In this document: piece after piece, positions 6,923 to 23,261 of the stretch | How positions within the stretch are numbered: position 1 is the stretch's first letter | Layout: each line of letters begins with the position of its first letter | Origin: Allomuricauda sp. | GTDB lineage: Bacteria; Bacteroidota; Bacteroidia; Flavobacteriales; Flavobacteriaceae | Assembly: GCF_028280385.1 (NCBI RefSeq) | Contig: NZ_JANQLX010000003.1 | Coordinates: 124,001-188,000, forward strand | Reading direction: 5' to 3' | DNA length: 64,000 nucleotides | The notes under the pieces: model-generated | Told to the model about the DNA's origin: nothing | The model's database searches: none | Seen by the model: only the letters and a program-made list of their open reading frames with translations | Program-made: the position numbers and the translations under genes

Positions 6923-7148
6923 ATGCTCGGAAATAGTCAAATTACTTCTGGGAGACTTTTAATTTAGTAATATCAAATAGGATTTCCCGGATACTTGCTT
7001 CTATATAATTTACCTTCTAATTTTCTTAGAATCAGGCTCCTGTATAGTATAAACTTTTCCTAACAATTATTTAAAGTATTTGAGTGGGATAATTCCTTCC
7101 AAAAGTGAGTAATTTGAAATAATAATTTATTATTTGTAAAGATTTCCC

Positions 7149-8438
7149 TTGGGCTTCTCCCGTTCAAATAGCACTTCCAGACCATTTCTTTTGCATGCTT
7201 CCTTGGCAGCATTTGGAACTTACTTTTGCATGTACGCATTTAGGCGCCCCTTTACCGTAGCCACTTTTGAAGGCTTGACCTTTGCAGGGATGGACTACAA
7301 AATTGTACTGATCATTGCCCAGGTTATGGGCTATGCCCTATCAAAGTTTCTTGGGATTAAGATTATTTCTGAACTCAAACCCAACCAACGACTGGTCTAT
7401 CTCATGGCACTTATTGGGTTGGCGGAGCTTTCACTGTTGTTTTTTGCTTGGGTGCCCAGGCCTTACAATATTGCGTTCATGTTCTTGAATGGGATTCCAT
7501 TGGGAATGATCTGGGGCATTGTGTTTTCATATTTGGAAGGAAGACGGGTCACGGATATTCTGGGGATAGCACTTTGTGCAAGCTTTATAGTTTCCAGTGG
7601 GGTGGTCAAATCTGTTGGGCTTTTTGTAATGCGCTTTACGGGGATATCGGAATTTTGGATGCCCGCTGTAACCGGTGCTTTCTTTTTGCTTCCCTTGTTG
7701 TTTTTTGGCTTTCTTTTGGAACGAATTCCACCTCCTTCGGAAAAAGACAAATCATCCCAAGTGGAGCGTTTGCCCATGACCCGGGAGGACCGGAAAAATG
7801 TGCTGGGAAAATATTTCCTACCCATTGCCATTATTGTGGTATTCTATACCCTGTTGACGGCCTTTAGGGATTTTAGGGACAATTTTGCCCGTGAACTATG
7901 GGACAGTATCGGATTTCAAGATGATGCTTCCGTATTTTCAACTTCAGAATTGGTTATTGCCGTTGTGGTCCTGTTGATCATTGGCTCCATCTTCTATATA
8001 AAGGACAATCTCAGGGCCTTAATGACATATCACTCCTTATTACTGTTGGGAACCATCGTATTGGGGCTGGCCACTTTGATGTTCCAATTGGGGATATTAA
8101 ACCCATTCCTTTGGATGGTTTGCACCGGATTTGGCCTGTATATCTGCTATGTGCCCTTTAATTGCCTGTTCTTTGATCGTTTTATTGCCGCCTTTAGAAT
8201 CAAGGGGAATTCAGGATTTCTCATCTATATTGCAGATGCTTTTGGCTATTTGGGCAGTATTTTGGTGCTTTTGTACAAGAACTTTGGGCAGGCAAATCTT
8301 TCATGGCTGGACTTCTTTATCTATGGGGCCTATGCCGTCGCTTTTGTAGGAATTGGAATTACTTTGGTATCCTGGTTCAACCTTAAGGCCAAATACAAAT
8401 CGGAAATCTTAAATGAACAATTGGGTTATGGACAATAA
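7149..8438 (+). CDS. DUF5690 family MFS transporter, probable organophosphonate importer
   Basis: 429 residues with about 11-12 hydrophobic segments. A stop at 7137 forces a TTG start at 7149 (or a later TTG at 7191); no ATG is available before the first membrane helix. The first helix ends in TYFCMYAFRRPFTVATFEG, which resembles the Arg-containing first-helix motif of the organophosphate:phosphate antiporters (GlpT/UhpT group) in which that Arg binds the phosphoryl group. This is a by-eye resemblance, not an alignment. It overlaps the next gene and heads a cluster of phosphonate enzymes, so inner-membrane import of an aminophosphonate is the likely job. Confidence 0.75.
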   Translation: MGFSRSNSTSRPFLLHASLAAFGTYFCMYAFRRPFTVATFEGLTFAGMDYKIVLIIAQVMGYALSKFLGIKIISELKPNQRLVYLMALIGLAELSLLFFAWVPRPYNIAFMFLNGIPLGMIWGIVFSYLEGRRVTDILGIALCASFIVSSGVVKSVGLFVMRFTGISEFWMPAVTGAFFLLPLLFFGFLLERIPPPSEKDKSSQVERLPMTREDRKNVLGKYFLPIAIIVVFYTLLTAFRDFRDNFARELWDSIGFQDDASVFSTSELVIAVVVLLIIGSIFYIKDNLRALMTYHSLLLLGTIVLGLATLMFQLGILNPFLWMVCTGFGLYICYVPFNCLFFDRFIAAFRIKGNSGFLIYIADAFGYLGSILVLLYKNFGQANLSWLDFFIYGAYAVAFVGIGITLVSWFNLKAKYKSEILNEQLGYGQ

Positions 8439-9597
8439 ATATGATGTCATCGTGGTTGGCGGTGGCATTTTAGGGACTTTTCACGCTTATCATGCACTTA
8501 AATTGGGTTTGAGGGTTTGCCTTCTTGAGCAAAACCTTCGCCCTAAAGGGGCTACCACACAAAATTTTGGACAGGTGGTACCTTCCGGAATGAATACGAA
8601 ATGGCAAACCTTTGGAAGGGAAAGCTTGAAAATTTACAAAGAGATTCAGTCCCTTTTTGACATAAGCGTGAGGCAAAATGGGACGGTATACCTCGCGTCC
8701 AATGAAGAGGAGGAACGACTGTTGGTGGAGTTGCGGGCCATCAACAATAATAACTCCTATACTTCCACTATGCTCACCAAAAAAGAGTGTTTGGAAAAAT
8801 ATCCAGGTCTTAAGGAGGATTATGTAACTGCAGGTCTCTTTTTTCCGGAAGAGGTAACCGTGGAACCACGCACCATGATCCATCGCCTCCAGAAATATTT
8901 GGTCAAGGAAATGAACTTGAAACTTTTGACTCAATTCAGAGTGGTTTCATGTACCAAGAAATTAAATGGAATTGAAGTTAAAGACACTAGAAACCGGAAA
9001 TTATGGGCCGGTAAGGTGATTATTTGCAATGGCAATGACTTTAAAAATCTTTATCCCGATATTTTCGCCGAAGGTGACTTGGAAGTTTCCAAGCTCCAGA
9101 TGATGCAGACCAAGCCCCAAGGTAATTTTTTGCTCAAGGGGAGCATACTTACCGGGTGGTCCATTAGAAGATACGAGGCCTTTGCAGAATGCCCTTCCTT
9201 TGCTGAAGTCAAGGCCAAGGAGACCCAAGACAGTCTTCAGAAGAAATGGGGTGTACATATCTTGTTCAAGCAGGCCGTGGATGGTTCCATAATTTTAGGG
9301 GATTCCCACCAATATGCCGATGCTGCGAAAATGGATGAGCTCGGGGATGATTTGGATATGGATATCGATAATTTTATGCTTCGGGAAGCCCAGAAGATTT
9401 TTCAATTGCCCACCTATCAAATTCAGCGGAGGTGGTTTGGAATGTATTCACAATGTAAAAACAACGACATCTTTACCAGAACCATAGATGAGGACATTCA
9501 TATCATCACCGGAATAGGAGGTAAGGGAATGACTGGAAGTGCCGGATACTCCAAAAAAAACATAAATGCTATTTTTAAGACACAAATTCAATTATGA
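8428..9597 (+). CDS. FAD-dependent oxidoreductase, TIGR03364 type (phosphonate-linked amine oxidase)
   Basis: 389 residues from the ATG at 8428, 11 bases inside the transporter gene (an ATG 15 bases earlier is also possible). The N-terminal dinucleotide fold YDVIVVGGGILGTFHA and C-terminal GIGGKGMTGSAG are those of the D-amino-acid-oxidase (DAO) superfamily; the GATTQNFGQVVPSGMN segment is typical of the TIGR03364 clade. That clade is known to sit beside phosphonatase-like hydrolases and is proposed to oxidatively deaminate an aminophosphonate related to 2-aminoethylphosphonate, giving phosphonoacetaldehyde. The next gene overlaps it by 4 bases (ATGA) and would cleave that aldehyde. The N-substituent of the true substrate cannot be deduced. 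Confidence 0.82.
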   Translation: MDNKYDVIVVGGGILGTFHAYHALKLGLRVCLLEQNLRPKGATTQNFGQVVPSGMNTKWQTFGRESLKIYKEIQSLFDISVRQNGTVYLASNEEEERLLVELRAINNNNSYTSTMLTKKECLEKYPGLKEDYVTAGLFFPEEVTVEPRTMIHRLQKYLVKEMNLKLLTQFRVVSCTKKLNGIEVKDTRNRKLWAGKVIICNGNDFKNLYPDIFAEGDLEVSKLQMMQTKPQGNFLLKGSILTGWSIRRYEAFAECPSFAEVKAKETQDSLQKKWGVHILFKQAVDGSIILGDSHQYADAAKMDELGDDLDMDIDNFMLREAQKIFQLPTYQIQRRWFGMYSQCKNNDIFTRTIDEDIHIITGIGGKGMTGSAGYSKKNINAIFKTQIQL

Positions 9598-10295
9598 AAG
9601 ACATAAAGCTTGTTGTTTTTGATATGGCCGGTACTACGGTGAACGAAGACAATGTTGTATATAAAACGGTTCAGAAAGCGTTAAGGGAAGCGGGGGCGGA
9701 TGTTGATTTGGACCTGGTACTGGAGTTTGGGGCCGGTAAGGAAAAATCCAAGGCCATAGCAGATGTGCTGGAGTATCTTCAACACACGGGCACAGAAGTT
9801 TCAGATATTGACGGCGATTTGGTCTTTTCCAACTTTAAGACCATGCTCAAAGAGGCCTATGCCAACCTCAAGGTAACCCCATACGATGGAGTGGAAGAAT
9901 TGTTTGAAACCTTAAAATCCAAAGAGGTAAAAGTGGTGCTCAATACAGGGTATGACCAGCATACCGCAAAGACCCTGATGCAAAAATTGGGCTGGAAGGT
10001 TGGCCATCAAGTAGATGCATTGATTACTGCTGATGATGTGATAAATGGTAGGCCCTCTTCAGAAATGATTGATAAGGCCATGGACATGTTTCAAATTGAG
10101 GACCCAGCTCAAGTGCTAAAAGCAGGGGACTCCATAATTGATATTGAAGAGGGGCAAAATGCCAATTGTGGTATTACGGTTGGGGTGCTAACAGGGGCCC
10201 ATACCAGAACCCAGCTAGAAACCATCAATCCAACGGTGATCTTGGATGCATTGCACGAGTTGGCCGAGGTGCTCTACCCAGCTCCGTCCAATTAA
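9594..10295 (+). CDS. Phosphonatase-like HAD hydrolase (PhnX-related, TIGR03351 type)
   Basis: 233 residues. HAD motif I reads VVFDMAGTTVNE: the nucleophile is D10 and the +2 position is Ala instead of the usual second Asp. DxAGTT is the hallmark of phosphonoacetaldehyde hydrolase. In the cap, FGAGKEKSKAI can be lined up with the MGLLK stretch of PhnX, placing K49 at the Schiff-base lysine. Motif IV is GDSIIDIEEG. Expected reaction: phosphonoacetaldehyde to acetaldehyde plus phosphate, in the cytoplasm. It overlaps the FAD enzyme by 4 bases and the regulator on the other strand by 4 bases at the stop codons. Confidence 0.85.
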   Translation: MKDIKLVVFDMAGTTVNEDNVVYKTVQKALREAGADVDLDLVLEFGAGKEKSKAIADVLEYLQHTGTEVSDIDGDLVFSNFKTMLKEAYANLKVTPYDGVEELFETLKSKEVKVVLNTGYDQHTAKTLMQKLGWKVGHQVDALITADDVINGRPSSEMIDKAMDMFQIEDPAQVLKAGDSIIDIEEGQNANCGITVGVLTGAHTRTQLETINPTVILDALHELAEVLYPAPSN

Positions 10296-10858
10296 ATAAA
10301 GAAATAGACCACCAACATTTTGGAACTGATCTTGCCCTTGTTGATGGGTACGTGGGGGATGCGTCCGTCAAAGAATATGGAATCACCTTCCTTTAAAAGC
10401 ACTTCTTGTTCCCCAATTACATAATAGCATTCGCCAGAGAGTACATACTTGAATTCGAAGGCATCGGTAATGACCTTATCGCGTTTGGAGTTGGGCTCCA
10501 CCTCCAACAGCACACTTTCAAACCCAACAGAATTTAGTTGCTTGCTAAAAATGTAGTTATAGGTAAACCCTACCGCTTCGTCCTCTTTTTCAATTAAGGT
10601 TTGTTCATCTTTACGAGCCACCAAAAAAGTTTGGCCGGTTCCCTTGGGAATGCCATCAAAAAAATCCGTCATTTCGGTTTCAAGGGCATCCACAATTTTC
10701 AAAAATACAGGGAGGGAGGGGATGGTTCGTCCATTTTCAATCCTTGAAATCAGTCCCGCGGTTACCCCAGCTTTAGTTGCAATATCATTTATGGTGTTTT
10801 TATTGTTCTTGCGAATTTCCTTCATCCGCTTTCCAATACCGATCAGATAATCTTCCAT
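10292..10858 (-). CDS. XRE-type HTH regulator with C-terminal cupin domain
   Basis: 188 residues. The N-terminal helix-turn-helix spans about residues 8-62 (KNTINDIATKAGVTAGLISRIENG), and the C-terminal cupin about 110-188 with a small ligand-binding barrel (SGECYYVIGEQEVLLKEGD). Regulators of this class sense a small metabolite in the cupin. It is transcribed convergently to the hydrolase and divergently from susC, in the middle of the phosphonate locus, so it probably controls both halves. A candidate operator lies at 10930-10946 in its upstream region. Confidence 0.88.
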   Translation of the reverse strand: MEDYLIGIGKRMKEIRKNNKNTINDIATKAGVTAGLISRIENGRTIPSLPVFLKIVDALETEMTDFFDGIPKGTGQTFLVARKDEQTLIEKEDEAVGFTYNYIFSKQLNSVGFESVLLEVEPNSKRDKVITDAFEFKYVLSGECYYVIGEQEVLLKEGDSIFFDGRIPHVPINKGKISSKMLVVYFFI

Positions 10859-10929
10859 GTTTTGAACCTCAATTGACGTTTTTAATATTTATAAGTTTTT
10901 CTCTTTTTTCTTAAAAAAACGTGCTAACA

Positions 10930-10946
10930 CTTAACCAATTGTTAAG
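10930..10946. promoter_or_regulatory. Inverted repeat, candidate operator for the HTH-cupin regulator
   Basis: CTTAAC-CAATT-GTTAAG: perfect 6-base arms around a 5-base centre, in the 284-bp region between the regulator and susC. An isolated half site CTTAAC recurs near 11080. No good second copy was seen upstream of the DUF5690 gene. Confidence 0.45.
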
Positions 10947-11142
10947 CAGTTGGATAGTAACGTATTCTGGCCATGCAAGATAGAATAAAAATTGAATATT
11001 TGTAAATAATATTAAGCTAACATTATTGCCTTTCTTTTAACCTTAGCATTTCTTTTTTTTAATCTGTTCAGCGCTATGTCTTAACGTGTGTATTGGATAT
11101 TTGTTGATAAATAATTAACCAAATTTTACAAATATTCAACAA

Positions 11143-14100
11143 ATGAAAAGAACACTCGTAGCATTTTTACTTGCTTTTTCAGTAAGTATGATCGGCTTCT
11201 CCCAAACCATGTTCACGGGAACGGTCGTAGACGAAAGCAACGTTCCCCTGCCCGGGGCTTCTGTTGTTGTAAAAGGTAGTGCCACTGGGGTAGCTACCGA
11301 TTTTGACGGTAACTTCCAGATTGAGCTTCCCCAAGAAGGAGCCATCTTGGAAGTATCTTATATAGGGTACATTACCCTTGATTTTGATACTACCGGAAAA
11401 ACCAGTGCTACCATTAGCCTGCAGCCCGACTCCCAAAAATTGGATGAGGTTGTGGTGACTGCACTTGGTATTAAAAAGGAGAAGAAACGATTGGGTTATT
11501 CCGTTCAGGAGGTTCAGGGTGACAATCTTGTGACCGCCAGGGAAACCAACGTTACAAATTCCCTTGCCGGTAGAGTGGCCGGGGTTCAGATCACAGGCGG
11601 TGGGTCCGGAGTGGGGTCCACTTCAAGGATTGTGATCAGGGGTGAAGGTTCCTTGATTCCCGGGAACAATTCCCCATTGTTCGTTGTGGACGGGATCCCG
11701 ATTACCAACCGTACCATCAGTAACCGTTCTGAAGGCAATCTGGAAACAGATTACGGGAACGGTGCCGCTGACATCAATCCAGACGATATTGAATCCATTT
11801 CCATATTGAAAGGCCCCAATGCAACCGCCCTATATGGGTCCCGTGGATTGAATGGGGTGGTCTTGGTCACCACAAAATCAGGAAGTGCCACAAGAGGTTT
11901 GGGAATCAGTTTTACCCAGAACGTAACTTTTGAGGAAGCGCTTAGAATCCCGAAATACCAAAACCAATATGGACAAGGTGCCGGGGGTGAGTTTGCCTTT
12001 GGAGATGGATTTGGTGGTGGAATCAATGATAACATTGATGAAAGTTGGGGACCTGTCTTAAATGGTCAGCTGATCGCACAGCACGATAGCCCAACAAGCA
12101 GTGGTTTTAGAGCTGGGGATTTTGCGGTTCGACCAAGAAATGCAGATGGGACATTTGCCGATACGGTAACGGCCACACCATGGGTAGCCAATCCAGGAAA
12201 TGTAGAGGATGGTTTCTTTGAAACCGGGCGCACCTTGACTACCAACCTTTCTTTGACTGGGGGTAATGAAAAAGGAAATTTTAGGCTTTCCCTTACTAAT
12301 TTGGACAATGAGGGAATCATTCCCAATACCGACTTCAATAGAGAGACCTATGCTTTGAGCGGGGCCTATAACCTAACAGATTGGTTAAAGGTTTCCTCCT
12401 CCATCAACTACGTGAACAGTAGTAGCAACAATAGGCCCAATAATTCCTATGGAACAGAGAACATCATGTACCTATGGGTATGGTTCGGGCGCCAAATCAA
12501 TATGGATTCCCTGAGGGATTACTGGCAGCCAGGTTTGGAGGGCAGACAACAGTACAACTACAACTACAACTGGCACGACAACCCTTTCTTTACCATGTTC
12601 GAGAATACCAATGGTTTTGATAAGCACAGAATGTTCGGTAATGCCAGGGCAGACATCACCTTGACCGAGGATTTATCCTTAATGGTCCGTACGGGTATCG
12701 ATTATTTTAGCGAGCTAAGGACAGGAAAAAGAGCCTATAGTACGCAACGATTTGCCAGGGGTCAATATAGGGAGGATGATATCTTTTTCAAGGAGCAGAA
12801 CACAGATTTCCTCCTGACCTATAACAAAGATCTGAACGAAGATTTCAACTTGGGTGCTTCCTTGGGTGGAAACATCAGGAAAGAAGAGAATAGGTATAAG
12901 AGAATTGCGGCCAACTCTTTGTCCGTCCCTGGAATCTATAATTTCCAGAATGCAGCAGAACCATTGTCAAAGACCCAGTTCAATGATGAGCGTAAGATCA
13001 ATTCGTTGTATGCTTTTGCAAACCTTTCCTATAAGAACATGCTCTTTTTGGATGTGACGGGCAGGAACGACTGGTCCAGCACATTGCCAGCGGATAACAA
13101 TTCGTACTTCTATCCGTCTGTGGGTGTCAGTGCCATTGTTTCCGATATGTTCGAATTGCCAGAAGCTTTCTCTTTCGTAAAACTCCGGGGAGGTTGGGCC
13201 AAGGTGGGTAACGATACCGACCCTTATGCCCTGCGAAACACCTTTACTTTTGATGAGCCTTTTGGCAATTACCAAAGAGTAAACGCTTCCAGTATTTTAA
13301 AGAACGAGGAGCTGAAACCAGAAGAGGCCAATTCCATTGAAGTGGGTGCAGACATTAGATTGTTCAACAATCGTTTGGGCTTTGATCTTACCTATTACGA
13401 CTCCACGACCAAAAACCAGATTCTGACCTTGCCAGTGGCCAATACCTCTGGATTCGATTCGCGAATCATCAATGCTGGTGAAATCCAGAACAAAGGGTTG
13501 GAGATTGTGGTGAATGCCACCCCTGTACAAACGGAAAACTTTACCTGGAACACCACGGCCAACTTCACTACCGCAAGAGGGGAGGTAAAATCCTTGACCG
13601 ATGGTTTGGATACCTACGAAATTTCCAACAACTACTTAAGCGTACAGGCTAGGGTTGGTGGAAGAATGGGAGATGTATACGGAACGGGCTTCGTAACCGT
13701 GCATGACCCCAGCAGCGAATTCTTCGGACAAGTGGTGCACAATGAGGATGGGTTCTCCATCAGGGATGGTAACCTAAAAAAATTAGGGAACTACAATCCA
13801 GATTTCACTTTGGGTCTACAGAACAATTTCAACTACAAGAATTTCAACCTTGGCTTCCTGTTCGATTGGAGGCAAGGAGGAGAGATCATGTCCAGGACCG
13901 TCTTGATCGGAGGTACTTCAGGGATGATGGACTTTACTGCCGTGGGAAGGGAAACAGGAATCATTTCAGAAGGAGTTATCCAGAATGCGGATGGCAGTTA
14001 TAGGGTCAACGATGTACGATTGAGCGGTCGTGACTACTATTGGTGGAGATACAACCGGGGCAATGAGGAAGTTGGGATGTACGATGCATCTTTCCTAAAG

Positions 14101-14331
14101 CTTCGCGAAGTAAAGATCGGATACAACTTCCCACAAAAACTGTTGAAGAATACCTTCATCCGATCTATGAACATCTCCTTGGTGGGACGAAACCTGGCCT
14201 TGTGGACAGAGAACCCGCATTTTGATCCAGAGACCATCTCCTTTAACGGCGGAACCGTGGTGCCAGGGGTGGAGGACATGGCCTTGCCAAGCTCAAGAAG
14301 CTATGGATTGAACCTAAACCTAACCTTCTAA
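11143..14331 (+). CDS. SusC/RagA-type TonB-linked outer-membrane transporter
   Basis: 1062 residues, normal SusC length. Signal peptide (MKRTLVAFLLAFSVSMIGFSQ), then a carboxypeptidase-regulatory-like domain (~22-100: GTVVDESNVPLPGASVVVKG), the LDEVVVTALGIKKEKKRLGY TonB-box/plug junction, a plug domain (~115-240) with NSPLFVVDGIPI and DIESISILKGPNATALYG, and a large beta-barrel ending in aromatic NLNLTF. It pairs with the SusD gene 17 bases downstream. In this context the cargo is inferred to be a phosphonate-bearing molecule rather than a plain glycan, because no glycoside hydrolase is in the locus while two phosphoesterase-fold enzymes and phosphonate enzymes are. Confidence 0.95.
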   Translation: MKRTLVAFLLAFSVSMIGFSQTMFTGTVVDESNVPLPGASVVVKGSATGVATDFDGNFQIELPQEGAILEVSYIGYITLDFDTTGKTSATISLQPDSQKLDEVVVTALGIKKEKKRLGYSVQEVQGDNLVTARETNVTNSLAGRVAGVQITGGGSGVGSTSRIVIRGEGSLIPGNNSPLFVVDGIPITNRTISNRSEGNLETDYGNGAADINPDDIESISILKGPNATALYGSRGLNGVVLVTTKSGSATRGLGISFTQNVTFEEALRIPKYQNQYGQGAGGEFAFGDGFGGGINDNIDESWGPVLNGQLIAQHDSPTSSGFRAGDFAVRPRNADGTFADTVTATPWVANPGNVEDGFFETGRTLTTNLSLTGGNEKGNFRLSLTNLDNEGIIPNTDFNRETYALSGAYNLTDWLKVSSSINYVNSSSNNRPNNSYGTENIMYLWVWFGRQINMDSLRDYWQPGLEGRQQYNYNYNWHDNPFFTMFENTNGFDKHRMFGNARADITLTEDLSLMVRTGIDYFSELRTGKRAYSTQRFARGQYREDDIFFKEQNTDFLLTYNKDLNEDFNLGASLGGNIRKEENRYKRIAANSLSVPGIYNFQNAAEPLSKTQFNDERKINSLYAFANLSYKNMLFLDVTGRNDWSSTLPADNNSYFYPSVGVSAIVSDMFELPEAFSFVKLRGGWAKVGNDTDPYALRNTFTFDEPFGNYQRVNASSILKNEELKPEEANSIEVGADIRLFNNRLGFDLTYYDSTTKNQILTLPVANTSGFDSRIINAGEIQNKGLEIVVNATPVQTENFTWNTTANFTTARGEVKSLTDGLDTYEISNNYLSVQARVGGRMGDVYGTGFVTVHDPSSEFFGQVVHNEDGFSIRDGNLKKLGNYNPDFTLGLQNNFNYKNFNLGFLFDWRQGGEIMSRTVLIGGTSGMMDFTAVGRETGIISEGVIQNADGSYRVNDVRLSGRDYYWWRYNRGNEEVGMYDASFLKLREVKIGYNFPQKLLKNTFIRSMNISLVGRNLALWTENPHFDPETISFNGGTVVPGVEDMALPSSRSYGLNLNLTF

Positions 14332-14348
14332 TCAAATAGAAAAGAAAC

Positions 14349-15788
14349 ATGAAAAAGTATATAACACTTTGTACAATTGCCTTCTTGAGTATGGTAGGCT
14401 GTACAGATGATTTTGAGGAAATCAATGCAAACCCCAACCAACCGGAAGAGGTAAGTTCTGATTTATTGCTATCCACAGTAATCACCTCTTTGGCCAATGC
14501 CACGGTTGATGATGGTGGTTGGGATAGAGGAAATATTGTGGCCCAACTCACGGCCAAGATCAACTTTACCGGATTCGATCGCTACAATTGGGGATCGGAA
14601 TCTGGATTGTGGAACAGCTTTTATGGCATCCTTCCAGAAATCAACATCATTCTTGAAAACGCGATGATGGAAGCTAGCAGAAACACCAGCTATGAAGGAA
14701 TGGCCTTGGTGCTGCGAGCTTATGTATTTGCCAATTTAACGGACAATTGGGGTGACATTCCCTATTCCGAGGCCATTGCCGGAAGCGAAGGTAACTTTAC
14801 ACCAGCCTATGACACCCAAGAGGAAGTTTACAATGGTATTTTGGCCGATTTAAGAACTGCGGAGACGCAATTGGCTTTAGGGCAGCCCATTTTGGGCGGT
14901 GATGTTTTGTACGATGGCGATTTGACCAAATGGAGACAATTGGCCAACTCTTTGCGATTACGTTATTTGATGCGTATTTCTGGGAAGACCAATGTGGGTG
15001 CCGAGATGCAGTCCATTTTGGATTCCGGGGTATTTATCGCCACCAATGAAGACAATGCCTCTGTGGTTTACCCAGCGAGCACCACCATCGATTCATGGCC
15101 TATTAGCACTGGACGTATAGGTGGATTTGATGAGCACAGAATGAGCGAGACCAGTGAGGCCGTATTGAAACAATTTGGCGATGGACGTTTGGAAGCTTGG
15201 TTCCAACCAACAGATAATCCTGATGATGACCCTGATCTCTTTGTAGGGTTGACCAACGGTCTGAGTGAGGACAATGCCTCTACCTTTAACGGTGGGGCCA
15301 GTAACGTTTCCCGCTTGAACCAGTCCTTTTTCTATGATTCCCCAAATTCCGTAATGGCGACCATTATCCAAACCGCTGAGGTACACTTCATTTTTGCAGA
15401 GGCCGCACAAAGAGGTTTGGTTACGGGAGATGCAGAAACCTTTTACAACGAGGGGGTTCGGTTATCCTTTGAGTATTGGGATGTGGACCAGGATGTCCTT
15501 GCATATTTGGCCCAGACTGGGGTTGCCTATGATGGCGAATTGGAAACCATAATCACCCAAAAGTGGTTGGCATCCTTTTTAGTGGGATTGGAAGGTTGGT
15601 ATGATTTCCGAAGGACTGGATTCCCATCAGTAATTGTACCCGGACCCGATAATGTAAACACTGACAGGGTACCGGTCCGGTTTATGTATCCAGATTCGGA
15701 ACAGACCTTGAACGGAACCAACTATCAAGCGGCAGTTTCCAGATTTGGCGCCGACGATATCAACACCAAAGGATGGTGGGAACAATAA
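14349..15788 (+). CDS. SusD/RagB-like nutrient-binding outer-membrane lipoprotein
   Basis: 479 residues. Lipobox MVGC with Cys near residue 18, then TDDFEEINANPNQPEEV and the SusD-like_2 pattern of TPR-like helices (NWGDIPYSEA at ~135, LTKWRQLANSLRLRYLMRIS at ~195, KWLASFLVGLEGWYDFRRTG near 405). It is the surface lid and substrate-capture subunit of the SusC transporter immediately upstream. It belongs to the SusD-like_2 branch rather than the classic starch SusD branch, which also fits a non-starch cargo. The next reading frame begins inside its last 44 bases or just after it. Confidence 0.93.
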   Translation: MKKYITLCTIAFLSMVGCTDDFEEINANPNQPEEVSSDLLLSTVITSLANATVDDGGWDRGNIVAQLTAKINFTGFDRYNWGSESGLWNSFYGILPEINIILENAMMEASRNTSYEGMALVLRAYVFANLTDNWGDIPYSEAIAGSEGNFTPAYDTQEEVYNGILADLRTAETQLALGQPILGGDVLYDGDLTKWRQLANSLRLRYLMRISGKTNVGAEMQSILDSGVFIATNEDNASVVYPASTTIDSWPISTGRIGGFDEHRMSETSEAVLKQFGDGRLEAWFQPTDNPDDDPDLFVGLTNGLSEDNASTFNGGASNVSRLNQSFFYDSPNSVMATIIQTAEVHFIFAEAAQRGLVTGDAETFYNEGVRLSFEYWDVDQDVLAYLAQTGVAYDGELETIITQKWLASFLVGLEGWYDFRRTGFPSVIVPGPDNVNTDRVPVRFMYPDSEQTLNGTNYQAAVSRFGADDINTKGWWEQ

Positions 15789-17463
15789 AACAAGAGTTTT
15801 GATCAGTAGAATTTTAATAGTCAGCTTGGCCATGGGGATTTTAATATCCCTGTGGTCTTGTACTGTTAAAGAAAAACCCGATCTGGGGATAGAACATGTG
15901 GTGGTGATCGGTGTGGATGGAATGAGTCCGGATGGGATACAAAAGGCCCATACCCCTATGTTGGATACTATGGTCAAGTATGGTGCGGCAACCATGAATG
16001 CCCGTGCGGTTCTTCCCTCAAGCTCAAGCCCAAATTGGGCTAGCATGATCATGGGGGCCGATACAGAACAACATGGGATCACTTCCAATGCGTGGGAGAA
16101 ATTTGACCATCAATTGTCTCCCGTGGTAGCTACAGAAAGGGGAACCTTTCCATCTATCTTTACCTTGTTCAAGGACCAACAACCTGAAGCCCATATCGGG
16201 GCCATTTATGATTGGGACGGCTTTGGGAGATTGTTTGAAAAGCGTGATGTGGATTTTGATATTGATGGCGACCACGAAGATGGCACAACAAAAGATGCCG
16301 TTGCATACATAAAAGAAAACACCCCCAAATTTACCTTTGTACATTTAGATCATGTGGATCATGCAGGTCATGGCATGGGCCATGGTTCCAAAGAATATTA
16401 TAGGTCGGTTCAAAAGGCGGATTCCCTCATTGCTGAAATAGTGGATGCCGCCAAACAGGCGGGAATGTTTGAAAAGACCATGTTCCTGATAGCCTCCGAT
16501 CATGGAGGATTGGGATATGGACATGGCGGTGAAAGTCCAGCGGAAATGACAATTCCATTTATCCTGTATGGAAAAGGCATCAAAGAAGGCTATACCATAG
16601 AAGAGACGGTATATCAATATGATAATGCGGCAACTGTAGCATTCGCCATGGAATTGAAAACACCGCAAGCATGGATAGGCAGGCCGATTACCGGGGCCTT
16701 TTTAGGGTATGAAAAACCAAAAGTGTACTATACCCGAAAAGAGCAGGTTATGGCTCCCAAAATCCTTCCGGATGCAGGGTATTTTGAACCTGCAGGAGGA
16801 TTTTTCAAAGCAGATTCCGTTGCCGTGGTCATGCAAAACCCTAACAGGGAAGGTTCGGTGCGGTACACTTTGGGCAGCGAAATGCCAACTCTTGAAAATA
16901 GTACCGTTTACCAGGACACATTCTATCTTAAGAAAACGACCTTGATCAAAGCTGCAATTTTTCAGGATGGACAGCTAAAAAGCACTGTGGCCGATGCCAA
17001 TTTTAGAATCGTGCCGCCAAACAATCCAAATGCGGTAAAGTACCTGGCTTATCAGGGTGAAAAAATGGAAAAACTACCTGATTTTACCGTATCAAAGCCT
17101 GTGAAAGAGGGATATGTGGGCGAGTTCTCGCATAAAACCTTGATAGGGGATGCCACCAAGGAAGATCAGATTGCCTTGGTATTGGAAAGCCACTTGCAGA
17201 TTGAAGAAGCGGGGAAATATAGTTTTTTTACCACCAGTGATGACGGCAGTAAATTGTTTGTCAACGGCGAACTGGTCGTGGATAATGATGGAAACCATGG
17301 AGTTCGGGAAAGAGGGGGATCCAAAGTTTTGGAAAAAGGAATACATCTGCTAAGAGTGGAATATTATAATGGCGGCGGAGGGTACCATTTGGATGTAAAA
17401 TACAAGGGACCCCAAACACCCAAACAGATTATACCCGCCGATAAATTAACTTTAAAGAACTGA
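15745..17463 (+). CDS. Exported alkaline-phosphatase-superfamily phosphodiesterase with C-terminal PA14 domain
   Basis: 572 residues from the first ATG. A TTG at 15799 would give a cleaner lipoprotein signal (Cys 21 residues later, ISLWSC), so the true start is uncertain. The core is the nucleotide pyrophosphatase/phosphodiesterase fold: VVVIGVDGMSPDG (metal Asp), SSSSPNWASMIMGADTEQHG (Ser nucleophile region, ~92-108), LDHVDHAGHG (~202) and ASDHGGLGYGHGG (~250). After a linker domain, a PA14 module (~455-565: YSFFTTSDDGSKLFVNGELV) probably binds carbohydrate. This superfamily includes phosphodiesterases and phosphonate monoester hydrolases. Placed between susD and a phosphonate lyase, it likely frees a phosphonate from an ester-linked lipid or glycan at the cell surface. 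Confidence 0.82.
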   Translation: MAPTISTPKDGGNNKTRVLISRILIVSLAMGILISLWSCTVKEKPDLGIEHVVVIGVDGMSPDGIQKAHTPMLDTMVKYGAATMNARAVLPSSSSPNWASMIMGADTEQHGITSNAWEKFDHQLSPVVATERGTFPSIFTLFKDQQPEAHIGAIYDWDGFGRLFEKRDVDFDIDGDHEDGTTKDAVAYIKENTPKFTFVHLDHVDHAGHGMGHGSKEYYRSVQKADSLIAEIVDAAKQAGMFEKTMFLIASDHGGLGYGHGGESPAEMTIPFILYGKGIKEGYTIEETVYQYDNAATVAFAMELKTPQAWIGRPITGAFLGYEKPKVYYTRKEQVMAPKILPDAGYFEPAGGFFKADSVAVVMQNPNREGSVRYTLGSEMPTLENSTVYQDTFYLKKTTLIKAAIFQDGQLKSTVADANFRIVPPNNPNAVKYLAYQGEKMEKLPDFTVSKPVKEGYVGEFSHKTLIGDATKEDQIALVLESHLQIEEAGKYSFFTTSDDGSKLFVNGELVVDNDGNHGVRERGGSKVLEKGIHLLRVEYYNGGGGYHLDVKYKGPQTPKQIIPADKLTLKN

Positions 17464-17472
17464 GTTCAACCA

Positions 17473-18837
17473 ATGAATCTGGACAAACCCAACCATCTGG
17501 AGCAGCTCGTGGAGGGCGATATCAATCAGACAGAGGCCAGAAGGCAGTGGATGGAGCAGGATATTGACCAACATACCAGGGAGTTGTTGGAACGCGATGC
17601 CCAATACTTTATGCACCAGTCCATGTCCACACCTTGCCTGGATGTCATCCGGAATTGTGAAGGTTCTTACATAGAAAGCGTCTCCGGCAAGCGCTATTTG
17701 GATTTCCATGGGAACAACGTGCACCAAATAGGATTCTCAAATCCCAAATTGGTCAGTAAGTTAACAGAGCAGCTTCAGCAGTTAACGTTCTCCACCCGAA
17801 GATATACCAATGAAGTTGTTATCCAATTTGCGGAAAAAATAACGGCCCTCACCCCTCCAAGTCTTAATAAGATACTCATGACGCCCAATGGGAGCTCGGC
17901 AGTTGGAATTGCCCTAAAACTTGCCCGGGCCGTCACCAAAAAACACAAAGTGGTCTCTTTTTGGGATTCGTTTCACGGTGCCTCCCTGGATGTGGTGGGA
18001 GTGAGTGGGGAGTCCATTTTTAGGGAACATATGGGCCCTCTGGATTCAGGTGTGATTCGAATTCCCCCGCCCATTACATATCGGGGAATGTATGAAGGAC
18101 AAGAGGACAAGGCTCTTGAATATTTGGAATATGTACTGTCCAAGGACAATCAAATTGGGGCTTTTCTAGCGGAGACCATCCGGAATACCGATGTGCAAAT
18201 ACCTTCTTCCAAGTTTTGGCAAGAAGTAAGGGGATTGTGCAATACGTACAAAGTATTGCTCATCTTGGATGAGATTCCAATTGCCTTGGGTAGAACGGGC
18301 AAAATGTTTGCCTTCGAAAACTTTGGTATTGAACCCGATATTCTATGTTTGGGCAAAGGATTGGGAGGCGGGATTATGCCGCAAGCAGCAATGGTCACCA
18401 AGTCGGAGTACAATAATTTTCAGGATATATCCTTGGGGCATTATACCCATGAGAAAAGTCCCATGGGTGCCATGGCAGGACTCACCGTTTTGGAAATAAT
18501 TGAGGAGGAAGCACTACTGGAAAAAGTGAAGCAGTTTGAAACTTATATGCGATCGGCCCTATACAAACTACAGCGCAAATATTCCCTGATCGGGGACGTA
18601 AGGGGTGTTGGCCTTCTGTGGGCATTGGAACTGGTCACAGATCGGACTACCAAGGAAAAAGCAGTAACCGAAGCGGAGGAAATTATGTACGAGTGCCTTA
18701 AAAAAGGACTCAACTTCAAAGTTTCCAAAGGAAATGTTCTCCAGCTTTCACCCCCGCTTACTATTACCAGGCAAGAGCTGGACCAAGCGCTCGGAATACT
18801 AAATGAAGCATTTTTAAAAATCAATACAATAGCGTAA
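17473..18837 (+). CDS. pbfA: PbfA-like (R)-1-hydroxy-2-aminoethylphosphonate ammonia-lyase (class-III PLP enzyme)
   Basis: 454 residues of the class-III aminotransferase fold. Segments recalled as typical of the PbfA group rather than ordinary transaminases include EGDINQTEARRQW, QSMSTPCLDVIRN, LDFHGNNVHQIGFSNP, FWDSFHGASLDVVGV and ILDEIPIALGRTGKMFAFEN. The PLP lysine is K295 in CLGKGLGGG. PbfA removes ammonia from (R)-1-hydroxy-2-aminoethylphosphonate to give phosphonoacetaldehyde, the substrate of the phosphonatase-like hydrolase upstream. There is no signal peptide, so it acts in the cytoplasm. It follows the phosphodiesterase by 10 bases and overlaps the next gene by one base (TAATG). The assignment is from memory of the family. 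Confidence 0.8.
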   Translation: MNLDKPNHLEQLVEGDINQTEARRQWMEQDIDQHTRELLERDAQYFMHQSMSTPCLDVIRNCEGSYIESVSGKRYLDFHGNNVHQIGFSNPKLVSKLTEQLQQLTFSTRRYTNEVVIQFAEKITALTPPSLNKILMTPNGSSAVGIALKLARAVTKKHKVVSFWDSFHGASLDVVGVSGESIFREHMGPLDSGVIRIPPPITYRGMYEGQEDKALEYLEYVLSKDNQIGAFLAETIRNTDVQIPSSKFWQEVRGLCNTYKVLLILDEIPIALGRTGKMFAFENFGIEPDILCLGKGLGGGIMPQAAMVTKSEYNNFQDISLGHYTHEKSPMGAMAGLTVLEIIEEEALLEKVKQFETYMRSALYKLQRKYSLIGDVRGVGLLWALELVTDRTTKEKAVTEAEEIMYECLKKGLNFKVSKGNVLQLSPPLTITRQELDQALGILNEAFLKINTIA

Positions 18838-20435
18838 TGAGGATAGGTACAATTCTTTTTTTGGTTACATTTCATTTTATGTCCTTGACCTGGGCACAAA
18901 AACAGGGCACCCAATTTTTAGTGCAACCATACCTTCAGGATGCAGAACCCAATGCCATGACCATCATGTGGGAAACCACAAATGGTGAAGAAAGTACCGT
19001 GGAATGGGGAAAGGCACCAAAACTTGGTAAAAAGTCCCATGGAGTAGCCTATGACATTAATTTTTCTAAGTCCAGGGTGCACGAAGTTCGCATCACAGGA
19101 CTGGATAGATTCACAGTGTATTATTATCGCGTAAAAACGGGAAATCTACGATCGGATATTTACCAATTCAAGACACCTCCCTTCCCAACAGATGACCATT
19201 CGTTCAATATTGTGGCCATGAGCGATATGCAGTACGATTATAATTTTCCGGATAAATTCGGCGAGATGGTCAATGAGGGCGTACTTGAATACATGCAGAG
19301 TGCCTTTGACCAAGAACTGCCCGAAAATTTAGCCATGGTCTTGGTACCAGGAGATTTGGTGGAAAATGGGAGTAAATACCATCAATGGAAAGATCATTTT
19401 TTTAACCCGGCAGAAAAGCTCTTTGCCAAAGTCCCCGTGTATCCTGTGTTGGGTAACCACGAGCGGAATTCCGTTTTTTATTTCAAATATTTCAGTCTTC
19501 CCAAGAACGGTACCCCTGCTTATGCAGAACATTGGTGGTACAAAGACTATGGCAACACAAGGATAATTGGTCTAAACTCCAATCAGGGGTATGAGGATTT
19601 GGGTGAACAGCGCAAGTGGCTACAAAAAGTCTTGGACGATGCGGCCCAAAAAGAAGACATTGACTTTGTATTTGCACAATTGCACCATCCCCATAAATCG
19701 GAATTATGGATTCCTGGCGAACGGGAATCCACTGGTAAAGTGGTCAAGATGTTGGAAGAGTTTTCAACAAAGACGGGCAAGCCAAGTCTCCATTTTTTTG
19801 GGCATACACATGGATATAGCAGAGGGCAATCCAAAGATCATAAACATCTATGGATCAATGTGGCCTCAGCTGGCGGTGCCATAGACAATTGGGGTGAGTT
19901 TGAAGGAAGGGACTATGATGAGTTTTCTGTTACCCAAGACGAATATGGTTTTGTGCTGGTTGAAGTGGACGGGGATAAGGACAATCCAAAATTCACCATC
20001 AAACGAATCAGCCGGGGAAATGAAGAACATTTCAGAGACAATGAACTTAGGGATAGCATTACCATTTGGAAAAAGGACAGAAGACCTACGGCACCTAATA
20101 CCTTGCAGCCTGTGGAAAATCAATTGGTAAAGGTAACGGGTACCCAGCTAAAAGCATCCACTTTTGAAAGTGGACACTCAAGGGCCTTTCATGCAGCCTC
20201 CCACTGGCAGGTTTCGGAAAACAAGACCTTTGAAAAGCTTGCCTACGAGCGATGGAGACAGCATGAAAATTGGTATTACAAAGAAAATAGACAAAAGAAC
20301 GACGATCTAACCGATGAAAGAACACATCGCCTCAAGCCTGGAACAACCTACTATTGGAGGGTACGTTACAGAGACCAAAATTTAAACTGGAGCGACTGGT
20401 CCAATGTGTCAACATTTATATCGGAATCGGAATAA
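18837..20435 (+). CDS. Exported purple-acid-phosphatase-like metallophosphoesterase with FN3 domains
   Basis: 532 residues with a Sec signal (FLVTFHFMSLTWAQ). An N-terminal FN3-like domain of the purple acid phosphatase type (~25-115: PYLQDAEPNAMTIMWETTNG) precedes a calcineurin-like domain with AMSDMQYDYN (~128), VPGDLVENG (~171), GNHER (~206), QLHHPHK (~280) and FFGHTHGYSRG (~321). A second FN3-like domain closes the protein (TYYWRVRYRDQNLNWSDW). It is the last gene of the susC operon before a strong terminator. Likely roles are release of phosphate or phosphonate from phosphorylated sugars or lipids in the periplasm or at the surface. Confidence 0.85.
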   Translation: MRIGTILFLVTFHFMSLTWAQKQGTQFLVQPYLQDAEPNAMTIMWETTNGEESTVEWGKAPKLGKKSHGVAYDINFSKSRVHEVRITGLDRFTVYYYRVKTGNLRSDIYQFKTPPFPTDDHSFNIVAMSDMQYDYNFPDKFGEMVNEGVLEYMQSAFDQELPENLAMVLVPGDLVENGSKYHQWKDHFFNPAEKLFAKVPVYPVLGNHERNSVFYFKYFSLPKNGTPAYAEHWWYKDYGNTRIIGLNSNQGYEDLGEQRKWLQKVLDDAAQKEDIDFVFAQLHHPHKSELWIPGERESTGKVVKMLEEFSTKTGKPSLHFFGHTHGYSRGQSKDHKHLWINVASAGGAIDNWGEFEGRDYDEFSVTQDEYGFVLVEVDGDKDNPKFTIKRISRGNEEHFRDNELRDSITIWKKDRRPTAPNTLQPVENQLVKVTGTQLKASTFESGHSRAFHAASHWQVSENKTFEKLAYERWRQHENWYYKENRQKNDDLTDERTHRLKPGTTYYWRVRYRDQNLNWSDWSNVSTFISESE

Positions 20436-20522
20436 GTTGCCAAAAGAACAAATAAAGGGGAAGCCCTTAAAACTTTAATTGCGTTTCATTTCAAGTTCAG
20501 TAGTTTGAGTTAGTTTGATCGG

Positions 20523-20548
20523 AACCCGCGCCTTGGCGCGGGTTTTTT
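20523..20548 (+). terminator. Intrinsic terminator of the susC-pbfA operon
   Basis: GC-rich stem AACCCGCGCC / GGCGCGGGTT with a 2-base TT spacing and a T tail. Confidence 0.95.
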
Positions 20549-20594: not shown

Positions 20595-23261
20595 ATGAAA
20601 AGGAGTTTCTTGTTAACGCTGCTATTGATACTGTCCCTTACCATGGGACTAAGGGGTCAGCATTCCGTGGCAAGGGAATGGAACGAGGCCCTGTTGTCCG
20701 CAATCCGCGTGGATATTGCAAGACCCACCGTCCATGCCCGTAATCTTTTCCATAGTGCTATGCTCATGTACGATGCATGGGCCATTTTTGACCCGACCGC
20801 ACAGACTGTTTTTTTGGGAAAATCGCTGGGAGGCTATACCTGTGGGTTTAATGGAATAACAACGCCGCCCACGCTGGAGGAAATAGAGGAAGCCAGACAT
20901 GAGATCATGAGCTATGCCATGTTTCGATTGCTCAACCATAGATTTGTCGAATCGCCGGGAGCGGTGGAATCCATACAGATTTTTAGCGATTTGTTCAACG
21001 CCTTGGGCTATGATGAAAATTTCGAGTCCATTGATTATAGCTCCGGTTCCTATGCCGCCCTCGGAAATTATATGGCCAGTCAAATGATTGCCTTTGGATT
21101 ACAGGATGGATCTAATGAGCAAAACACTTATGCCAATCAATTTTATCAGCCGAACAACCCCGTATTGGTGCTGGAAAATTATGAGGAAACCAATCCGCTG
21201 ACCGACCCGAATGGTTGGCAACCCTTGGCCTTTGAATTATTTATTGGACAGGCGGGGAATGAATTTCCGGGCGATATTCCAGATTTTCTTAGTCCTGAAT
21301 GGGGCCAGGTAACACCCTTTTCCCTTCAGAAAAGTGACTTGGAGATATTTCGGAAAACAGACCCCGAAATTCCCAATTCCGATTTTGACAGTTATATCTA
21401 TAATGATCCTGGGCCTCCAGTTTACATCCAGCCATCCAATGAAGATGGGATAGACGATCCTTACAAATGGCATTTTGCACTTGTTGCCTCTTGGTCTTCC
21501 CATTTAGACCCAGATGATCCAACTTTGATTGACATATCTCCCGGAGCTATTGGAAATGTGGACATTGCAGATTATCCTGAAACATTTGAAGAATACAAGG
21601 CATTTTATGATTTTGAAGATGGAGGAGACCCAGGTTCCGGCCATGCATTAAACCCCATAACCAATGCGCCCTACACGCCTCAGTTGGTAAAACGGGCGGA
21701 CTATGCCAGGGTGTTGGCTGAATTTTGGGCCGATGGACCCGATTCAGAGACACCACCAGGACATTGGTTCACCATTTTGAACTATGTTAGTGACCACCCC
21801 CAAACCGTCAAGCAATTTGAAGGTACAGGGCCGGTTTTAAGCGATTTGGAATGGGATGTAAAGGCATATTTGACATTGGGCGGCGCCATGCACGATTCCG
21901 CGGTGAATACCTGGGGAGTAAAAGGGTACTATGATTATGTTAGGCCCATTTCCGCTGTGAGATACATGGCGGGGAACGGGCAAAGCAGTGATGCTGACCT
22001 TCCCAATTATGACCCTTTGGGGATACCTCTAATACCTGGATTGATTGAATTGGTGGAAGTAGGGGACCCCTTGGCCGGAGACAATAACGAAAATGTGGGC
22101 CGTATCAAGATTTTTGCCTGGAAGGGACCCGATTTTATTTCAGACCCGGATGTTGATGTGGCTGGAGTGGATTGGATTTTGGGCACTCATTGGTGGCCCT
22201 ATCAGCGCAGTACGTTCGTGACCCCACCCTTTGCAGGATACGTATCAGGACATTCCACCTTTTCCAGAGCTGCCGCTGAGGTGTTGACCTTATTTACCGG
22301 GGATGCTTTTTTTCCTGGAGGGATGGGTGTGTTTGATGCCGCACAAGGCGATTTCTTGGTTTTTGAAAACGGTCCTAGCGAAAACCTTACCCTACAATGG
22401 GCCACCTATAGGGATGCATCCGACCAGACTAGTTTGTCCCGAATCTGGGGAGGGATACATCCTCCAATCGACGATATTCGGGGGCGTATTATTGGAGATA
22501 AAATTGGAAAAGATGCCTTTGGACTGGCCAAGGATTATTTCAATGGAAAGGCCATTATAGAAAATGACAATTTCGAGATCTTGGTGAATGGGGAATCCTG
22601 CAATGGATTTGCCAACGGGACGGTGCAGATCAATGCCAAGGCTTACTTTCCATACGTTGCCAGCATAGACGGGAATATCTTTGGATTTGATCAAGAGTTA
22701 CTTGTGGACAATCTGGTGCCAGGGGTTTACGATCTTTGCATTACCATAGATACCGATAAGGATTTTCAACAGTGTTTTCAGCTGAGCATTGGGGAGGCCG
22801 CAGCTATAAGTGGTTCCGTGGAATTGGAGCAAGAAGGGATATTTGCGCGAGCTGTGATTCATATGGAGGAAGGCACCCCGCCATATACCCTAAGGGTCAA
22901 TGATGAGATTTTGGGCGAATTTGAGGGGGATCAGTGGGAAATATTTGTTGCGGATGGCGATACTTTGGAGATAGAAACCGCCCTGCCTTGCGAAGGGAAG
23001 ATTGAGCAAGAGATCAACATAGGCCAAACCAGGATTGCTTATACCAATCCCATAGAGGATTACATTAAAGTACGGGTGTTTGAGGATTTAGGTATGGTGC
23101 GGGCCGATATTTTTAATGTACACGGGCAATTGCTTACCTCGGAAATCTATGAAGTGAACAATGGGGAAATGGAAATAGCAACAAATGGATTGGCCAATGG
23201 CATGTATTTCGTCCAACTCCATTTGAATGAAAAAAGAACCATCAAACTGATCAAGAAATGA
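20595..23261 (+). CDS. T9SS-sorted vanadium-dependent haloperoxidase/PAP2-superfamily protein
   Basis: 888 residues, Sec signal (LLLILSLTMGLRGQ). The PAP2/vanadium haloperoxidase active site is visible as FAGYVSGHSTFSRAA (~545-560) and RIWGGIHPPIDDIRG (~615-630), giving the acid-base and vanadate/phosphate histidines. The N-terminal VAREWNEALLSAIRVD and ARNLFHSAMLMYDAWA helices are typical of the bacterial haloperoxidase branch. Residues ~650-800 are beta-rich and of unclear role. The last ~80 residues form a type IX secretion sorting domain (YTNPIEDYIKVR, NGMYFVQL, IKLIKK). Surface or secreted location is therefore likely. Whether it oxidises halide or hydrolyses phosphate cannot be told by eye. 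Confidence 0.85.
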   Translation: MKRSFLLTLLLILSLTMGLRGQHSVAREWNEALLSAIRVDIARPTVHARNLFHSAMLMYDAWAIFDPTAQTVFLGKSLGGYTCGFNGITTPPTLEEIEEARHEIMSYAMFRLLNHRFVESPGAVESIQIFSDLFNALGYDENFESIDYSSGSYAALGNYMASQMIAFGLQDGSNEQNTYANQFYQPNNPVLVLENYEETNPLTDPNGWQPLAFELFIGQAGNEFPGDIPDFLSPEWGQVTPFSLQKSDLEIFRKTDPEIPNSDFDSYIYNDPGPPVYIQPSNEDGIDDPYKWHFALVASWSSHLDPDDPTLIDISPGAIGNVDIADYPETFEEYKAFYDFEDGGDPGSGHALNPITNAPYTPQLVKRADYARVLAEFWADGPDSETPPGHWFTILNYVSDHPQTVKQFEGTGPVLSDLEWDVKAYLTLGGAMHDSAVNTWGVKGYYDYVRPISAVRYMAGNGQSSDADLPNYDPLGIPLIPGLIELVEVGDPLAGDNNENVGRIKIFAWKGPDFISDPDVDVAGVDWILGTHWWPYQRSTFVTPPFAGYVSGHSTFSRAAAEVLTLFTGDAFFPGGMGVFDAAQGDFLVFENGPSENLTLQWATYRDASDQTSLSRIWGGIHPPIDDIRGRIIGDKIGKDAFGLAKDYFNGKAIIENDNFEILVNGESCNGFANGTVQINAKAYFPYVASIDGNIFGFDQELLVDNLVPGVYDLCITIDTDKDFQQCFQLSIGEAAAISGSVELEQEGIFARAVIHMEEGTPPYTLRVNDEILGEFEGDQWEIFVADGDTLEIETALPCEGKIEQEINIGQTRIAYTNPIEDYIKVRVFEDLGMVRADIFNVHGQLLTSEIYEVNNGEMEIATNGLANGMYFVQLHLNEKRTIKLIKK

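Follow-up and report, generated by a model that had tools for sequence, protein, structure and literature searches.

A cluster of nine genes at positions 7149–20435 of the 64-kb window analysed here, a stretch of contig NZ_JANQLX010000003.1 from the 4.12-Mb genome of Allomuricauda sp., is best read as an organophosphorus-type SusCD locus joined to the Pbf pathway of aminophosphonate breakdown, a combination that is real and conserved. With a probability of about two in three, the cluster is one co-regulated system that imports and mineralizes ester-bound aminophosphonates. All nine genes had been named in a sequence-only reading of the window, and the open reading frame list together with NCBIfam and Pfam scans confirmed each family. 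The genes lie in two plus-strand blocks, DUF5690–pbfD–phnX-like and susC–susD–phosphodiesterase–pbfA–purple acid phosphatase (PAP)-like, with a minus-strand gene for a helix-turn-helix (HTH)-cupin regulator between them (Table 1). Within each block the genes overlap or are separated by at most 17 bp. The phnX-like and regulator genes are convergent, and the regulator gene and susC are divergent with 284 bp between them.

The intracellular chemistry is well supported by family membership. PbfA beats the cut-off of the equivalog family NF049939 by 177 bits and shares 57% identity with a protein of Vibrio metoecus whose gene adjoins PhnW- and PhnX-type genes. Its nearest relatives among the best 80 of 583 are from Muricauda, Allomuricauda, and Flagellimonas. 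In a 44-row tree built with a subset of the PbfA loci, it falls into the Flavobacteriaceae part of a 38-row PbfA group (99/98) that also holds Vibrionaceae and Endozoicomonas members. Five other class III aminotransferases of the same genome and one Endozoicomonas paralogue lie outside this group; a sixth own class III enzyme (1012-aa frame) was left out, the outgroup branches are long, and the bootstrap is unsettled. The family score and the tree placement both speak against an ordinary omega-transaminase, the grouping by which the sequence-only reading would have been refuted. The FAD oxidase passes the cut-off of TIGR03364, the family of PbfD1, and purified PbfD members oxidize N-methyl-2-aminoethylphosphonate (N-methyl-AEP) and 2-aminoethylphosphonate (AEP) to phosphonoacetaldehyde (PMC10590968). 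The PhnX-like hydrolase misses the TIGR03351 cut-off by 0.6 bits; of three relatives scanned, two pass it (230.9 and 231.3) and a Dyadobacter one stays below (201.6). Its best PDB match is PhnX (3.4e-12), and its D10 and K51 are invariant in 13 of 13 aligned rows, including two Vibrionaceae PhnX. In PhnX-type enzymes the aspartate is the nucleophile and the lysine forms the Schiff base. The PbfA and FAD-oxidase assignments of the sequence-only reading and its route through phosphonoacetaldehyde are supported. No PhnW match was found in the genome at E 1e-10, which fits entry to phosphonoacetaldehyde by oxidase and lyase. Nor does the genome have a phosphoenolpyruvate mutase above the Pfam cut-off, the one match lying below it (26.9 vs 31.5 bits), which suggests that the organism uses phosphonates rather than making them. 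The pbfA gene is uncommon: at E 1e-120 it turns up in 3 of the 296 genomes searched for the order and in 5 of the 345 for the class, both counts including the own genome.

The tie between SusCD and pbfA proposed by the sequence-only reading was borne out in other genera. GTDB species genomes were scanned once with the window PbfA, and the loci of the best 80 of 583 relatives were grouped by record title into Flavobacteriaceae (46), Dyadobacter (15), and others (19). Both SusC and SusD stand beside pbfA in 41 of the 46 Flavobacteriaceae loci, in two of the 15 from Dyadobacter, and in one of the 19 others (L083). All 41 hold the phosphodiesterase as well, and in all of them, as in the window, pbfA belongs to the SusCD block and has the exported esterases before it or on both sides. 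Counted singly, the Flavobacteriaceae loci have the phosphodiesterase (44), the PAP-like enzyme (40), the regulator (37), PbfD (37), and the PhnX-like hydrolase (36); the last two occur jointly in 36, and the PbfD of Kriegella scores below the TIGR03364 cut-off. The five loci without both Sus genes are L027 (starts within pbfA), L031, L032, and L052 (Arenibacter), and L033 (SusD fragment). In Dyadobacter, DUF5690, PbfD, and the PhnX-like hydrolase are found in 15 of 15 loci and the phosphodiesterase, whole or in part, in 14. The own genome encodes 22 SusC above the cut-off, so that a random point lies within 6 kb of one in about 6% of cases. Compared with this figure, the 41 loci, which share ancestry, argue that the proximity is not due to chance.

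The Kriegella aquimaris locus (L034) carries SusCD and pbfA near PhnA-, PhnY-, and PhnW-type genes, which take the place of PhnX-like and PbfD genes, and also has a presumed AepP and a further FAD oxidoreductase that its context marks as PbfC-type. These labels come from Pfam matches, gene order, and PMC8316502, in which this species is an AepP bearer with PhnWAY or PhnWX neighbours. The locus shows a second SusCD-phosphonate architecture, a different route behind the same type of importer, and counts in favour of the proposed system. In Allomuricauda nanhaiensis (L020:7476-8717), a second FAD oxidoreductase (PF01266, below the TIGR03364 cut-off) lies in the susC block between the phosphodiesterase gene and that of an extra esterase-like protein described below.

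The components of the cluster differ in how far they have diverged. Identities to the window proteins, taken from matches over 90% of length, range across the 46 loci from 64 to 81% for PbfA, 60 to 89% for the regulator (37 loci), 62 to 75% for the PAP-like enzyme, 49 to 72% for the PhnX-like hydrolase, 45 to 74% for the phosphodiesterase, 34 to 87% for SusC, and 29 to 82% for SusD; over this whole set the spread of the phosphodiesterase is almost that of SusC. Among the 20 loci whose PbfA is at least 74% identical, the phosphodiesterase (66–74%), PhnX-like hydrolase (66–72%), and regulator (82–89%) are well conserved, and SusC reaches merely 51–66% and SusD 38–53% (19 each). Croceivirga (L024) shows the reverse, with a PbfA of 72% yet a SusC of 87% and a SusD of 82%. 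Because of these low identities in close loci and the Croceivirga case, the comparison indicates that SusCD pairs have been exchanged between otherwise similar clusters. Such exchange would fit a cargo consisting of different forms of one phosphonate class.

SusC and the SusD-like lipoprotein form a SusCD pair: they are adjacent and match TIGR04056, TIGR04057, and PF12771. Judged by eye, the lipoprotein signal of SusD precedes an acidic stretch, the pattern typical of surface lipoproteins. The phosphodiesterase is a lipoprotein with no clear surface signal, and the PAP-like enzyme has a plain signal peptide (both by eye) and no type IX secretion system (T9SS) tail in the Pfam scan; the latter looks periplasmic rather than surface-exposed. 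The earlier picture of a surface half comprising SusCD and two phosphoesterases therefore holds for SusD and not clearly for the two enzymes, and their signals suggest that the substrate may well be processed in the periplasm, following import by SusCD. A sulfatase was rejected as the identity of the phosphodiesterase: the formylglycine motif of sulfatases, C/S-x-P-x-R, is replaced by S94-S-P-N-W98, with S94 and W98 invariant in 26 rows. In agreement with the sequence-only reading, the Pfam scan of ten proteins showed no glycoside hydrolase or polysaccharide lyase, and in the phosphodiesterase only an accessory domain of chitobiase C-terminal type.

Relatives have further exported proteins. 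In 27 of the 46 Flavobacteriaceae loci, a protein of ~423 aa is encoded between the phosphodiesterase gene and pbfA. It has no Pfam match (one member scanned), and its profile finds in the PDB first the teichoic-acid phosphorylcholine esterase CbpE (1.9e-7) and next a competence protein (0.006). A search of the own genome with this profile (A2), run with no positive control, found no CbpE-like protein. Another exported protein with a weak alkaline-phosphatase-superfamily match lies behind pbfA or the PAP-like gene in 30 of the 46 loci.

The two blocks share a promoter element. The 10-bp site TATTTGTAAA has exactly three copies in the 64 kb, at 7131, 10997, and 11125 (inverted), and these lie only at the two block promoters; 0.28 copies are expected, and one of 100 shuffles reached three. 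In 32 relatives, which are kin and whose counts are not independent, 59 copies occur in 8,532 bp of regulator–susC intergenic DNA, compared with 3 in the other 673,270 bp of the same loci. At least one intergenic copy is present in 31 of the 32 and two in 28, mostly ~144 and 18 bp before susC. The site is also found upstream of DUF5690 in 21 of 29 readable relatives, and in 19 of those a forward copy precedes the CMYAFR codons by 76–100 bp (by 96 bp in the window); no position could be assigned in L182 (a second copy of DUF5690) or in L172 (a differing anchor word), the latter being scored as a miss. A generic promoter element was rejected as an explanation, the reversed control having 0 copies in these 32 intergenic stretches and 6 over the full length of the 32 loci. 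We infer that the HTH-cupin protein binds this candidate operator. The regulator is of HTH-cupin and not of Pho type, and it looks substrate-responsive.

DUF5690 is a candidate aminophosphonate permease and would represent a new permease family. Its predicted fold is of the major facilitator superfamily (MFS); the glucose-6-phosphate transporter, an organophosphate:phosphate antiporter, ranks first among the structural matches, and within the MFS such antiporters may be its closest kin. Searches of PDB sequences gave nothing at E 1 for the single sequence and one chance-level match for the profile. All 30 Bacteroidia genomes that have PbfD also have DUF5690, in 20 of them within 12 kb. The proposed function rests on this co-occurrence and the fold. 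The gene was seen in 20 of the 46 Flavobacteriaceae loci, being often lost at the flank end, and all 29 of these genomes that were searched whole have it. In six other neighbourhoods (L134–L139), DUF5690 adjoins a gene of 291–295 aa, with a PHP domain in L134, and no reference phosphonate genes are present; a phosphoribosylglycinamide synthetase is also nearby in L134. They point to a possible second role of this permease family.

In the mechanism that we propose, with enzyme and permease functions taken from PMC8154272, PMC10590968, PMC12366243, and PMC8316502, SusCD would import molecules beyond the size that porins admit, for example fragments of lipids or oligosaccharides bearing aminoethylphosphonate-type groups. 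In the periplasm, the phosphodiesterase, which resembles nucleotide pyrophosphatase/phosphodiesterases (NPP-like), and the PAP-like enzyme would cut the phosphonate ester, assisted in many relatives by the CbpE-like esterase and the second alkaline-phosphatase-superfamily protein. DUF5690 would move the freed aminophosphonate into the cytoplasm, where PbfA, acting on (R)-1-hydroxy-2-aminoethylphosphonate (R-HAEP), and PbfD, acting on AEP and N-methyl-AEP, would yield phosphonoacetaldehyde, to be split into acetaldehyde and phosphate by the PhnX-like hydrolase. The HTH-cupin protein would govern both operons via TATTTGTAAA. Release from lipids or glycans would agree with the known sources: R-HAEP occurs in Acanthamoeba polysaccharides and HAEP in a bacterial phospholipid (PMC8154272), which we count in favour. 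A stricter form of the proposal, to which we give somewhat less than even odds, makes the cluster a dedicated importer of macromolecule-bound C–P compounds, in which SusCD is the exchangeable specificity part, constant NPP-, PAP-, and CbpE-like esterases remove the head group within the periplasm, and DUF5690 forms the new aminophosphonate permease family.

Several observations weigh against a single co-regulated system for bound phosphonates. Thirteen of the 15 Dyadobacter loci hold DUF5690, PbfD, the PhnX-like gene, and pbfA without SusD, and the pbfA loci of Chitinophagaceae and their kin have almost none of the partner genes; SusCD is thus dispensable for the pathway itself. No phosphonate gene is near DUF5690 in 11 of the 30 loci followed, in other genomes and the own. 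TATTTGTAAA shows no excess in the window once one mismatch is allowed. It is absent upstream of DUF5690 in 8 of 29 relatives. At susC it is lacking in four loci of Leeuwenhoekiella, two each of Arenibacter and Dyadobacter, and one of Kriegella; in these the regulator is more distant, lies elsewhere, or falls outside the stretch covered. A Flavobacterium locus (L042) lacks the site despite a regulator 69% identical, and L049 carries both sites although its stretch shows no regulator. Over the whole own genome it has 25 copies compared with 16 of the reversed control, which weakens the argument against a generic promoter, and it is not exclusive to the locus, as a pair in opposite orientation, 140 bp apart, precedes another own SusC (contig C5:113224-116709). 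The exported enzymes may, besides, have a phosphoester as substrate.

An unlikely alternative is general phosphorus scavenging: SusCD and the exported phosphoesterases would be there for ordinary phosphodiesters, those of lipid head groups and of teichoic-like or phosphocholine glycans, and PbfA, PbfD, and the PhnX-like hydrolase would handle free aminophosphonates that enter by porins, both halves being merely co-regulated. Lidbury et al. (2021; PMC8115612) have described SusCD pairs that are induced by phosphate starvation and accompanied by phosphodiesterases. The exported enzymes belong to phosphodiesterase and phosphatase types, the extra enzyme of the relatives resembles an esterase of phosphorylcholine, which is a phosphate, and the Dyadobacter loci without SusD also suit it. 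However, the position of pbfA in the SusCD block, rather than in the inner block, throughout the SusCD-bearing Flavobacteriaceae loci speaks against two separate halves, and so does a regulator of HTH-cupin and not Pho type. Compatible with import of bound aminophosphonates, but improbable as the purpose of the cluster, is acquisition of nitrogen (and carbon), with phosphate as a by-product. The ammonia or methylamine released by PbfA and PbfD enzymes (PMC8154272, PMC10590968), the use of AEP as a nitrogen source by other bacteria (PMC8316502), and the apparently substrate-responsive regulator favour it, whereas exported phosphoesterases suit phosphorus scavenging and the ten scanned proteins include none for nitrogen assimilation. 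It is very improbable that the cluster is not for phosphonates and that some other amino alcohol or amino phosphate is the substrate of the PbfA homologue. Class III aminotransferase folds do carry many activities, and PbfA activity in Bacteroidota rests on homology, but the NF049939 margin, the similarity to the Vibrio metoecus PbfA with its PhnW- and PhnX-type neighbours, and the joint presence of PbfD and the PhnX-like hydrolase in most of the Flavobacteriaceae loci all oppose such a function.

The cluster resembles several known systems in part. The low-phosphate-induced SusCD pairs beside phosphoesterases in Flavobacterium, termed PUS (PusCD; PMC8115612), likewise have phosphatases and phosphodiesterases in place of carbohydrate enzymes, and the present cluster, too, combines SusCD with phosphoesterases. 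In one phrase, the same paper places some SusCD beside "phosphonate-degrading enzymes", so the earlier statement that no such SusCD pairing had been described does not hold. Its main text leaves these enzymes unnamed, and one of its six PusCD loci may be this locus. The present analysis, by contrast, defines the pathway (PbfA/PbfD/PhnX-like), the DUF5690 gene, the HTH-cupin regulator, and the promoter site common to both operons. The hydrolytic clusters phnWX-pbfA and pbfD-phnX (PMC8154272, PMC10590968) share PbfA, PbfD, and the PhnX-type hydrolase, but here PhnW has no match in the genome at E 1e-10, SusCD in the outer membrane and esterases outside the cytoplasm are added, and DUF5690 stands where others have ATP-binding cassette or AepP permeases. 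AepP, an MFS protein related to GlpT (PMC8316502), resembles DUF5690 in the MFS fold predicted for the latter, possibly in that relationship, and in lying beside phosphonate catabolism genes; DUF5690 is a separate Pfam family, and the Kriegella locus shows none. With its SusC/SusD pair, exported processing enzymes, and local regulator, the cluster is akin to Sus-type polysaccharide utilization loci and may work like their importers; the ten scanned proteins include no glycoside hydrolase or lyase, the carbohydrate-active kind of enzyme expected of such loci. Literature searches, with most subscription journals outside coverage, found no description of SusCD with PbfA or of a role of DUF5690, nor the word DUF5690, and the available parts of PMC11892949, PMC10752948, PMC7029141, PMC9671461, and PMC9426549 describe neither; for phosphonate esters of exopolysaccharide or of dissolved organic matter, the search gave no match. 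New here are the 10-bp site at both operon promoters, DUF5690 as permease candidate, and the CbpE-like extra enzyme of relatives.

If the proposal is true, it shows a way in which Bacteroidota could reach phosphorus held as phosphonate esters in glycans and lipids, bound forms that small-molecule phosphonate transporters would not take directly. The cluster also points to a putative permease family, to an operator candidate, and, in the CbpE-like protein of relatives, to an esterase by which aminophosphonates may be released. Little is known of how abundant R-HAEP is in nature (PMC8154272), and the compound would be worth seeking in glycans and lipids from the places where these bacteria live.

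Table 1. Features of the SusCD–Pbf cluster and its flanks (window positions).
Feature	Position	Strand	Evidence or remark
Shared promoter site TATTTGTAAA, candidate operator	7131..7140	+	ends 9 bp 5' of DUF5690 start
DUF5690, membrane protein of MFS fold with TTG start; proposed as aminophosphonate permease of the inner membrane	7149..8438	+	PF18943 554.7 bits
PbfD-type FAD oxidase (AEP / N-methyl-AEP to phosphonoacetaldehyde)	8413..9597	+	TIGR03364 412.2 vs cut-off 285.1
PhnX-like phosphonoacetaldehyde hydrolase, HAD	9594..10295	+	TIGR03351 218.3 vs cut-off 218.9; D10/K51; PDB PhnX
HTH (XRE-type) and cupin regulator	10292..10858	-	PF01381, PF07883
Shared promoter site TATTTGTAAA, regulator–susC intergenic region	10997..11006	+	exact copy
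Shared promoter site TATTTGTAAA, inverted	11125..11134	-	ends 9 bp 5' of susC
SusC-type TonB-dependent outer-membrane transporter	11143..14331	+	TIGR04056 706.6 bits vs cut-off 368.25
SusD-type surface lipoprotein	14349..15788	+	PF12771 313.9 bits
Exported lipoprotein phosphodiesterase (NPP-like, Ser nucleophile), Fn3_assoc and PA14 domains	15745..17463	+	
PbfA	17473..18837	+	NF049939 701.8 bits vs cut-off 525; tree
Metallophosphoesterase, PAP type with N domain, exported, probably periplasmic	18837..20435	+	PF16656, PF00149; PDB purple acid phosphatase 2.8e-6
Terminator-like hairpin 3' of susC block	20521..20546	+	11 pairs, 7 GC, T tract; consensus match alone

The listed TTG start of the phosphodiesterase overlaps susD and is uncertain. 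Terminator-like hairpins as a class are not enriched in the region (20 found, 19.7 expected). An extension of the locus to either side was rejected, since the neighbouring genes have no counterpart in the stretches of relatives' DNA compared. The genes 3' of 20435 (VCPO-like, FN3 protein) have no match in the 80 PbfA loci. Those 5' of 7149 (Gfo/Idh, TIM barrel) have none in the 80 loci, most of which end near DUF5690 (9 of the 46 Flavobacteriaceae loci reach more than 1 kb before it), nor in 30 DUF5690 stretches with ~1.4 kb 5' of the gene. The unmatched protein encoded 3' of the cluster at 20595-23261 combines a match to the second domain of vanadium chloroperoxidase (VCPO) with a T9SS tail. 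The SusC preceded by the paired sites on contig C5 (L183, 7222-10473 minus) has a SusD-like neighbour, and its site layout resembles that of the present locus. In nine loci of Chitinophagaceae and kin (L053, L054, L056–L061, and L078), pbfA is 57–59% identical to that of the window and lies amid another common gene set (U11, U15–U18, and U22–U24).

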